Shown: positions 10,985 through 31,772 of the stretch, piece by piece | Layout of the letters: each line of letters opens with the position of its first letter | How positions within the stretch are numbered: the first letter of the stretch is position 1 | DNA from: a virus | DNA length: 64,000 nucleotides | Virus record (IMG/VR): IMGVR_UViG_3300005289_000052 | Coordinates: 124,001-188,000 of that record | Strand: one strand, 5' to 3' | Notes under the pieces: generated by a model | Seen by the model: the letters and a program-made list of their open reading frames with translations, nothing else | The model's database searches: none | Told to the model about the DNA's origin: nothing | Made by a program: the position numbers and the translations under genes

Positions 10985-11018
10985 ACACTAGAGTAATATA
11001 GACTTGAGATTTATTTAT
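10985..11018 (-). promoter_or_regulatory. Early-type promoter (TATATTAC)
   Basis: Minus strand reads AATCTCAAGTCTATATTACT then CTAGTG. It is nearly identical over 45 bases to the element at 29943-29975, including the upstream AACTGGAA. TATATTAC is the core reported for phiKZ early promoters used by the virion RNA polymerase. Confidence 0.78.
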
Positions 11019-29263: not shown

Positions 29264-29893
29264 TTAGTAATGCGACTTCGGGTTGAAGTCGATACCGGGC
29301 AAACGGCTTACTGCTGTCATGAGTCGATGAACGTGGGCAACCTGGATGCTGATCCGGGAAGGACCACCACGAGGATAACCACGACCACGTGTAAGTTGCT
29401 GCGCTGCGTCATTGACTGCGACAACCAGTCCTTGAATGAACTTGCGTTCTTCTTCGCTGGGGTTGAAGCGCATTGGGCACAGACGAACGAATTCTTCTAC
29501 AGTCCAGCCCATGATGAAGATTTCGCCATTCTTGATGGTTACTTCTTCGGCAGGGTTTATGTGGAGATAGACACGATACAACAACGCCATTTCGTCATTC
29601 TTCTGACTTGGGCGTTCGGCAGGATGAAGTATCTCGCGAAGTTCTTCGATCGTGTGGGGCCGGATGGATTGTACCAGAGTCATCACAGAAGCTGGCGGTA
29701 GCGGTTCACGTCGCAACTGTTGATTGTGATCCAGAGCAAGCTTCACCTTTAACTTGCTAGGGGAGTAAGCGATTGCAAATGGTTTGTGTGCGTGAACCGA
29801 AACAATCGTGTAGTGTGTGGAATTCGAATACTGTAGACTGTTGTCGTAGTTGTAAATCAACGCGTGGATGAGGAGACGAGTCTCTTCGCGCAT
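29264..29893 (-). CDS. First gene of the small-protein early operon, unknown
   Basis: Codes 209 residues. GGAG six bases before ATG 29893 is chosen over a TTG four codons earlier. The protein has an N-terminal helical region, a middle with many Pro/Glu, and a basic GRGYPRGG loop near residue 175. No domain recognised. It follows the best early-type promoter in the window at about 50 bases, so it should be among the first proteins made. Confidence 0.74.
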   Translation of the reverse strand: MREETRLLIHALIYNYDNSLQYSNSTHYTIVSVHAHKPFAIAYSPSKLKVKLALDHNQQLRREPLPPASVMTLVQSIRPHTIEELREILHPAERPSQKNDEMALLYRVYLHINPAEEVTIKNGEIFIMGWTVEEFVRLCPMRFNPSEEERKFIQGLVVAVNDAAQQLTRGRGYPRGGPSRISIQVAHVHRLMTAVSRLPGIDFNPKSHY

Positions 29894-29942
29894 GGAGTTC
29901 TCCAAAGAACGAAAGGTTAGGGACCGATATAACTCAGTCTAT

Positions 29943-29977
29943 TCACCAGTGTAATATAGATTTGAGATTTTTTTGAT
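29943..29977 (-). promoter_or_regulatory. Early-type promoter (TATATTAC)
   Basis: Minus strand reads AATCTCAAATCTATATTACA then CTGGTG, with AACTGGAA about 15 bases upstream, closely matching the element at 10985-11018. It drives the operon from 29893 down to the terminator at 27250. Confidence 0.8.
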
Positions 29978-30000
29978 TCCAGTTTACACGTATGTAGTGA

Positions 30001-30134
30001 ATACAGGCAATGTCAACATTGCTCGCAAGGGGGTGATCCAGCCTTAGTGTGGTCTCCGAATCCTTGTATCGCTGGGAAGCGTAATAAAACGGATTCACGG
30101 CTGCCTGTATCCAGTCCGTCCTTCGGGACGGACT
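30001..30134 (+). ncRNA. Candidate structured RNA with anti-16S-rRNA 3'-end sequence
   Basis: Five mutually compatible stems are visible: P1 30001-30007/30104-30110, P2 30008-30012/30017-30021, P3 30039-30043/30099-30103, P4 30058-30063/30091-30096, P5 30070-30073/30078-30081 capped by GGGA (a GNRA loop). P1 stacks directly on both P2 and P3. A perfect 9-bp hairpin with a UUCG loop (30113-30134) follows. The junction between P2 and P3 is unpaired and carries AAGGGGGTGATCC; with the CAGCC of P3 this 17-base stretch (30027-30043) complements the 3' end of Pseudomonas 16S rRNA. The strand is chosen because both tetraloops are canonical only on plus. It could instead be a leader of the 30161 gene. 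Confidence 0.55.
30113..30134 (+). terminator. UUCG-capped hairpin, terminator-like but no T-tract
   Basis: AGTCCGTCC and GGACGGACT pair perfectly around TTCG, followed by CCTATTCC. It would end the RNA at 30001 or act as a stable 5'-leader hairpin 26 bases before the next start codon. Confidence 0.55.
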
Positions 30135-30160
30135 CCTATTCCGCCAATCAGGTAAAACCA

Positions 30161-30667
30161 ATGGAAAACATCAAGACCGCCAGGACAGTGATCGATCTCG
30201 AGAAAACTGTGCAGAGGCTTATGGATTCAGTAGACCTTCTTCAAGACGCCGCAGAGATGTGTCGCGCTGAGGGTCCGATCTTACTGCGTGACTTCCGTAC
30301 CGTGGGTGTTAAAGTTCCACGTCAGTGCGGTAAATCCTTCGAAGCAGTACAACGCCTGATCCGCAATGAGAAGGCCATCATGATCTGTATCAATGATGCT
30401 CTTCGTAAATCGTTAGCCACCATCACCCACAGTCATCCGCATGGAGAGCCTCTCAAGCCTCACCAGATCGCGCGGATGTACACCGTGGACGAAGTCATCA
30501 AGGCAATCAAGTCAGTGCGTAACGGCCAACAGGACATCCTCTTGGCTGGCGCTAACGAGATCATCGTTGATGACTCTCACTGGTTCTTCCAACTGGTCCG
30601 CACTAACCAGTTCTACCAGTGGCTCTGGGATCGCCAAGGCGCAGACCAGAAAATCCTGCTCCTGTAG
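30161..30667 (+). CDS. Truncated P-loop NTPase-like protein
   Basis: Codes 168 residues from ATG 30161 (AGG upstream). VPRQCGKSF (52-60) is a Walker A of the RQxGKS type found in terminase and some helicase ATPases, and EIIVDDSHWFF (133-143) is a Walker B strand. It stops soon after, so only the first half of a RecA-like core is present. An in-frame GTG at 30047, placed ten bases after a very strong Shine-Dalgarno, would add 38 residues, but these translate the RNA stems and look non-coding. Role unknown: a nucleic-acid-dependent regulator or remnant of a larger ATPase. Confidence 0.72.
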   Translation: MENIKTARTVIDLEKTVQRLMDSVDLLQDAAEMCRAEGPILLRDFRTVGVKVPRQCGKSFEAVQRLIRNEKAIMICINDALRKSLATITHSHPHGEPLKPHQIARMYTVDEVIKAIKSVRNGQQDILLAGANEIIVDDSHWFFQLVRTNQFYQWLWDRQGADQKILLL

Positions 30668-31106: not shown

Positions 31107-31772
31107 TTACGACAAACGCATGTTGCGTTGGGCAATTTTCAGTAAGTCTTCGATCGGACGACTATTGTGAATGCGTTCCCGAAGTTTGAGTTTTTGTTCC
31201 CCAGACTCTTTATCTGGAGCCCAACCCACAGCACTATAGCGTTCGCTAGAATGTGGATCGAAATGCACAGCCATCCTGAAAGCATCCAACCAACCAATCT
31301 TGAATGTTTTCAGATAAGCTTCAAAGTAGGTAGCACCAGAACCGATAGCGATTGGGAGTTCTTTATCTGGCACTTCCCGAATATTGAGTATCTTCCTGCG
31401 AGTGATGATACTGAAACGATGTACCTTCCCAGTCTCAGTGACGATCAGCGCAGTGCCGCGAGGAATGTTGTTCTTCGTCAAGTTCAGCGCTTCAAACGAT
31501 TCAACAACGTGGTTCAGATCCGAACCCAAAGGCCAAATGGCCTCAAGGAAATTCCCTGTGTTGCCATCGCCAGCGCAACCCATGAACACGGCTACCTCAC
31601 CGCCAACCTTACGCTTCACTACGCCCTTATTGAGCATGATGATCTTTTGCGTGTTCTCTTTACTGCTGGTTCCAGTCGAGCCACACGAGTCACAGGAGAA
31701 TTCCATCGGATTGATGTGCGTCGATTTAAGGTCAGCGTACATCACTTTACCGTTTGTAGCAATCGTTGTCAC
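31107..31772 (-). CDS. HslV/proteasome-like Ntn hydrolase
   Basis: Codes 221 residues from a GTG with AAGGAAAGG upstream. After the initiator the chain begins TTIATNGKVMYADLKST, matching the start of HslV and proteasome beta subunits, with Thr2 as the likely catalytic N-terminal nucleophile and Asp14 at the usual acidic position. VAVFMGCAGDGNTG (60-73) matches the HslV GFAGGTAD strand-turn, and LPIAIGSGATYFEAYL (139-154) matches HslV's IAIGSG helix start. A small CDSCGSTG insertion (27-34) is unusual. It may form a phage peptidase ring or an inactive decoy; no HslU partner is seen here. Confidence 0.75.
   Translation of the reverse strand: MTTIATNGKVMYADLKSTHINPMEFSCDSCGSTGTSSKENTQKIIMLNKGVVKRKVGGEVAVFMGCAGDGNTGNFLEAIWPLGSDLNHVVESFEALNLTKNNIPRGTALIVTETGKVHRFSIITRRKILNIREVPDKELPIAIGSGATYFEAYLKTFKIGWLDAFRMAVHFDPHSSERYSAVGWAPDKESGEQKLKLRERIHNSRPIEDLLKIAQRNMRLS

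Follow-up and report, generated by a model that had tools for sequence, protein, structure and literature searches.

A structured RNA family of phiKZ-like jumbo phages with a conserved complement to the 3′ tail of 16S rRNA

Many jumbo phages, phiKZ and relatives among them, carry a gene for a small RNA in which a single strand, complementary over 14 to 17 bases to the 3′ tail of the host 16S rRNA, is held between conserved helices. Sequence comparison establishes the RNA family, its predicted structure, the conserved complementarity and the predicted discrete unit. Conservation of the 16S complement points to the host ribosome as the direct target of this phage RNA. We consider it probable, with appreciable room for doubt, that the RNA acts in trans, pairing with the 16S tail of the 30S subunit and blocking or retuning Shine-Dalgarno (SD)-dependent initiation. 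One member lies in the window, the whole stretch of 64,000 nucleotides of viral DNA that was analyzed, where the RNA gene and its surroundings are composed of the following features:

29951–29958, minus strand: TATATTAC early-promoter element, outside the RNA and upstream of the divergent gene at 29264–29905
29991–29994, plus strand: TATG, a phiKZ-type late-promoter/start motif recognized by sequence, with the G at 29994 as the predicted +1
29994–30140, plus strand: predicted transcript of the stand-alone non-coding RNA gene, with P1–P4 and terminator, homologues at 48 loci
30001–30007, plus strand: 5′ strand of P1, pairing with 30104–30110 (compensatory changes in relatives)
30008–30021, plus strand: P2 hairpin CAATG-UCAA-CAUUG (compensatory changes in L019-type relatives)
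30027–30043, plus strand: 16S-tail complement AAGGGGGUGAUCCAGCC, with the invariant core at 30027–30040
30058–30063, plus strand: 5′ strand of P3, GAAUCC, pairing with 30091–30096 (compensatory P3 changes)
30071–30080, plus strand: P4 hairpin GCU-GGGA-AGC with a GNRA loop (GNGA loop in nearly all members)
30091–30096, plus strand: 3′ strand of P3, GGAUUC
30104–30110, plus strand: 3′ strand of P1, CCUGUAU
30113–30140, plus strand: terminator-like hairpin AGTCCGTCC-TTCG-GGACGGACT, then CCTATT
30161–30667, plus strand: neighbor gene of unknown function (phrog_2586), outside the RNA and absent in relative L007

The TATATTAC element, which we take to be the phiKZ early-promoter consensus, has a single other exact match in the window, at 11000 on the minus strand. 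Further downstream, a gene at 31107–31772 (minus strand) matches the PHROGs 'peptidase HslV family' (phrog_1040).

The motif AAGGGGGTGATCCAGCC at 30027–30043 on the plus strand is the sole copy in the 243,669-base virus record. Its computed duplex with GGCUGGAUCACCUCCUUA has 17 contiguous pairs, one of them G-U, and an energy of -33.7 kcal/mol, versus -12.2 kcal/mol for the ordinary full SD AAGGAGGU alone. The Pseudomonas 16S 3′ end, GCGGCTGGATCACCTCCTTA, was verified in a Pseudomonas genome and fits the 17-mer, and the 17-base complementarity with a single G-U pair that the original prediction had read from this DNA is thereby confirmed. The accompanying claim that the C at position 16 marks the match as Pseudomonas-specific is incorrect, as C16 faces G1526 in Pseudomonas and E. 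coli alike; the base that discriminates between them is G15 (30041), opposite C1527/U1527. By arithmetic, an exact match to the 17-mer is expected about 1.5e-5 times per 128,000 positions, as in the window, and shuffled sequence with three mismatches tolerated gave a mean of 0.28 matches. Across all motif variants tested, the predicted duplex ranges from -25 to -34 kcal/mol. The opening cost of the motif is 8.7 kcal/mol, and the predicted 16S duplex exceeds both this cost and the window's sampled SD sites.

Among viral contigs, a scan for the 17-mer returned 51 matches, roughly 16 of which share one anatomy consisting of a closing helix, a hairpin, the motif, a second stem with a GNRA loop, and the other side of the closing helix. 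Pattern scans, BLAST and a covariance model brought the family to 48 copies representing 43 distinct RNAs. The structured 17-mer, which it had been proposed to look for in other jumbo phages, has counterparts with its core there, including in phiKZ itself, where the copy lies between PHIKZ203 and PHIKZ204 (approximately 212,850–212,980 of NC_004629). Members were identified in phiKZ and relatives, PhiPA3, PA1C and relatives, 201phi2-1, Viktualia, Psa21, Phabio, D6, RVTF4, DT01 and many uncultured jumbo phages, several of 220–325 kb; where hosts are stated for the named isolates, these are Pseudomonas species. Other matches to the 17-mer read as coding, in GGDPA (with A at position 5) or KGVIQS frames, and lack the scaffold. 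Such copies, of which the databases hold many, are what would favor regarding the motif as a chance match or a coding stretch, yet with scaffold, promoter and terminator conserved at 48 loci this explanation is refuted by the comparative data and we give it next to no credence.

Several of the searches were independent of the motif or driven by the flanks, and the members they brought in keep the core. Flank-driven BLAST recovered the copies in phiKZ, 201phi2-1, D6, RVTF4 and DT01, and the covariance model recovered Phabio after a motif pattern allowing two mismatches had missed it. A pattern made from the P1 ends alone returned six loci, all six with the core. A covariance model of the phiKZ type only finds the window RNA with an E-value of 1.2e-5, much of the score coming from the motif. 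Apart from the known members, a loose TATAG..TGATCC..AACTACG pattern picked up nothing but noise, and in GTDB contigs the 17-mer loci among the matches listed gave only weak, motif-driven model scores. At the DT01 locus (L333:631-753, minus strand), the opposite strand is annotated as hypothetical protein PA10_00263, probably spuriously. A very divergent pair of RNAs with a GGATTAGTTCC-type P4, L072 and L159 on contigs of 70–112 kb, may constitute a separate subfamily.

Genes of the window phage, including those for RNA polymerase and DNA polymerase, mark it as phiKZ-like. The nearest named counterpart of its RNA polymerase beta subunit comes from Burkholderia phage FLC9 (41%). Neither the motif pattern nor the covariance model found the RNA in FLC9, FLC8, Noxifer, OBP or EL, and it was not found in the tested phages of Erwinia, Serratia, Klebsiella, Salmonella, Vibrio, Stenotrophomonas, Aeromonas and Shewanella. 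Since FLC9, Noxifer, OBP and EL do without it, the RNA is not essential to the lifestyle. No E. coli-type member (CCAACC) was found in phages of enterobacteria, the single AACC match appearing to be coding.

Across the 43 distinct RNAs, a 14-base core, RAGGRGGUGAUCCA, faces 16S positions 1528–1541 and varies at two positions only. Core positions 2–4 and 6–14 are invariant, which at some positions is partly ascertainment because most members were collected with core-containing patterns. The two variable positions, 1 (opposite U1541) and 5 (opposite U1537), each hold either A or G, both variants keeping the pairing. Toward helix 45, positions 15–17 read GCC, GTC, GCT, GCA, TAA, AGG or CTG, and pairing reaches 1525 in many members. 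Because these three positions vary around a constant 14-base core, the core corresponds to the complement of the free 16S tail, 1528–1541. The original prediction had the match running through the anti-SD and on into the helix 45 strand; the anti-SD part is upheld, and the last three bases are not fixed among relatives. On the other side, the base just before the motif is not fixed and pairing stops at U1541, with none into the 16S precursor. The flanks have a mean identity of 63%, and shuffled flanks reach 57% with the same aligner. Complementarity is thus kept while the scaffold drifts, as looked for in an antisense RNA, and this includes members from searches that did not select on the exact motif. 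The sequence comparison strongly supports the 16S tail as the predicted pairing target.

Conserved junction strands are often found in structured RNAs that bind proteins, and the strand could be a protein-binding element whose likeness to a 16S complement arises by chance or from an SD-like composition. We consider this improbable, given that the match coincides exactly with the free 16S tail, that the core variants all preserve pairing, and that a chance match of the 6–7 bases beyond the SD has a probability below 1e-3 by arithmetic.

The predicted fold is supported by covariation, which was counted within subgroups because MAFFT misaligned P3 between them. In the phiKZ-type alignment, both sides have changed in 12 of the 25 pairs and 93.9% of cells pair, versus at most 47% in slid controls; in the L019-type alignment, seven pairs have changed on both sides and 97.9% are paired. 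Sequences in the window's own subgroup differ too little for covariation to be seen. Between subgroups, the scaffold signal alone looked too weak for a motif-masked covariance model. A scaffold descriptor gives 17 of the 30 members a higher score than any of the 179 control sites that carry the motif, membership having been assigned by eye beforehand and the other members failing the strict rules through a bulged P2 or P1. The minimum free energy fold of the lone window sequence pairs part of the 17-mer. Of the earlier claim that 12 of its bases lie in the unpaired P2–P3 junction, the junction is retained and the number is revised, with all 17 bases falling in it in the comparative structure. 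In phiKZ- and Psa21-type RNAs (L137, L286, L287, L053), a conserved GACCTCT just 3′ of P1 is similar to the anti-SD and might form a cis duplex with the motif.

The RNA appears to form its own transcription unit. In 47 of the 48 copies, TATG or TATAG directly precedes P1, which in many begins on the G of that motif. In phiKZ, the late promoters of the non-virion polymerase, nvRNAP, have been mapped to a TATG motif whose G is +1 (PMC4666361). We read TATAG as a further possible transcription start, perhaps that of middle promoters. Most of the 48 units end in a hairpin and a T-rich stretch, usually TTTATGCC. This predicted promoter and terminator delimit a discrete unit, as anticipated for a trans-acting antisense RNA. 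In L007, the RNA and its terminator are present and no plus-strand open reading frame follows. A cis-acting 5′ UTR element or riboswitch, which would in every case precede a target gene and share its transcript, was rejected on the basis of L007 and of the terminator in most members.

The original prediction had also raised strong recruitment of ribosomes to the GTG at 30047, and the motif could then be an over-long SD driving that reading frame or the gene at 30161. It does contain a perfect extended SD, its 17 pairs to the 16S end include the anti-SD, and three copies, those of the window, L023 and L026, have an open GTG frame. However, the start about 5–9 nt downstream with a conserved frame that an ordinary SD would have is absent: no start codon is provided by the fixed motif at normal spacing, 30 of the 43 RNAs lack any start within 20 nt of their GG-rich part, and the frame of GTG 30047 is closed or shifted in L006, L007, L009 and L047. 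A pairing of 17 bp is also far beyond normal SDs, and most members have their own terminator. Because the frame is not maintained and L007 has no downstream reading frame at all, the RNA is neither a leader nor the SD of a protein, and the recruitment claim is not supported; we regard this explanation as highly improbable. Loss of the motif with retention of the start, which had been named as evidence against a ribosome-directed RNA, is the reverse of what relatives exhibit, where the motif is kept and the GTG frame is lost.

We infer expression of the RNA, its binding to the 30S subunit and the direction of its effect on translation. Under the ribosome-masking model, a phage promoter with a TATG or TATAG start would produce an RNA of about 110–150 nt with its 5′ end paired into P1. 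P1, P2 and P3/P4 would hold the single strand RAGGRGGUGAUCCA(GYC) open, and this exposed strand would base-pair with the 16S tail on 30S subunits and cover the anti-SD. Masking may then block or retune SD-dependent initiation in middle or late infection. The structured display of the motif, borne out by covariation and the conserved complement, agrees with the earlier suggestion that the RNA could block, redirect or tag ribosomes; the part that relied on recruitment to the GTG is not supported.

The window phage's own genes use SDs, with 67% of upstream regions below -4 kcal/mol versus 17% in the background. A complete block would therefore also hurt the phage, making total shut-off unlikely. 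This SD use, which argues against plain shut-off, is one reason to consider that pairing with the 16S tail serves ends other than blocking, such as a 30S tether or tag, interference with maturation at the tail and helix 45, or a shield against nucleases. The complement also goes past the SD contact to take in all of the free tail, often continuing 3 nt into helix 45, and toxins that remove the anti-SD exist (PMC12274833). The pairing ends at U1541, short of the 16S precursor, which speaks against such functions. We hold these non-blocking functions to be a tentative possibility. Anti-SD masking itself may be limited in time, amount or place, and a tether, a maturation block and a tail shield are further candidate roles.

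If the masking model is true, an RNA antisense to 16S rRNA is the means by which phages attack or retune the ribosome, a mode for which the open literature searched contained no report. The chances seem to us about evenly balanced that this is a natural class of phage RNA that masks the 16S anti-SD by long pairing and thereby reprograms or seizes host 30S subunits in jumbo-phage infection. Such an RNA may help explain how nucleus-forming phages favor their own messages, and it could provide a natural tool for switching SD-dependent translation. Its presence in phiKZ, the best-studied jumbo phage, makes the model readily testable with existing tools. Our literature search covered open-licence publications and found no description of the RNA there; the transcript may already have been detected in work published elsewhere.

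In size and fold type, the RNA resembles the small structured RNAs of Rfam, in whose release 15 the window and 10 relatives matched no family at the gathering threshold, with only chance-level matches at E-values up to 10. Grad-seq in phiKZ described two non-coding RNAs, an intergenic RNA at PHIKZ297/298 and the 5′ UTR of p40, a fragment of the latter occurring in RNA polymerase and 30S fractions (PMC8545117). These are likewise small structured phiKZ RNAs, but their loci differ and the PHIKZ203/PHIKZ204 copy is not among the two. Ribosome-targeting proteins of the PhiKZ014 type (PMC10914614) are also phage factors directed at host ribosomes, although they are proteins acting mostly at the 50S subunit, whereas here an RNA is complementary to the 30S tail. 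The MazF toxin of M. tuberculosis acts on the 16S anti-SD to change translation (PMC12274833), in its case through cleavage by a protein, in contrast to the masking by an antisense RNA predicted here. The closest parallel in base pairing is the SD:anti-SD interaction, which shares the rRNA target strand and the AGGRGG center; the phage RNA differs in forming 14–17 pairs in place of 4–8, in covering the whole free tail, and in being a structured stand-alone RNA with no usable start.
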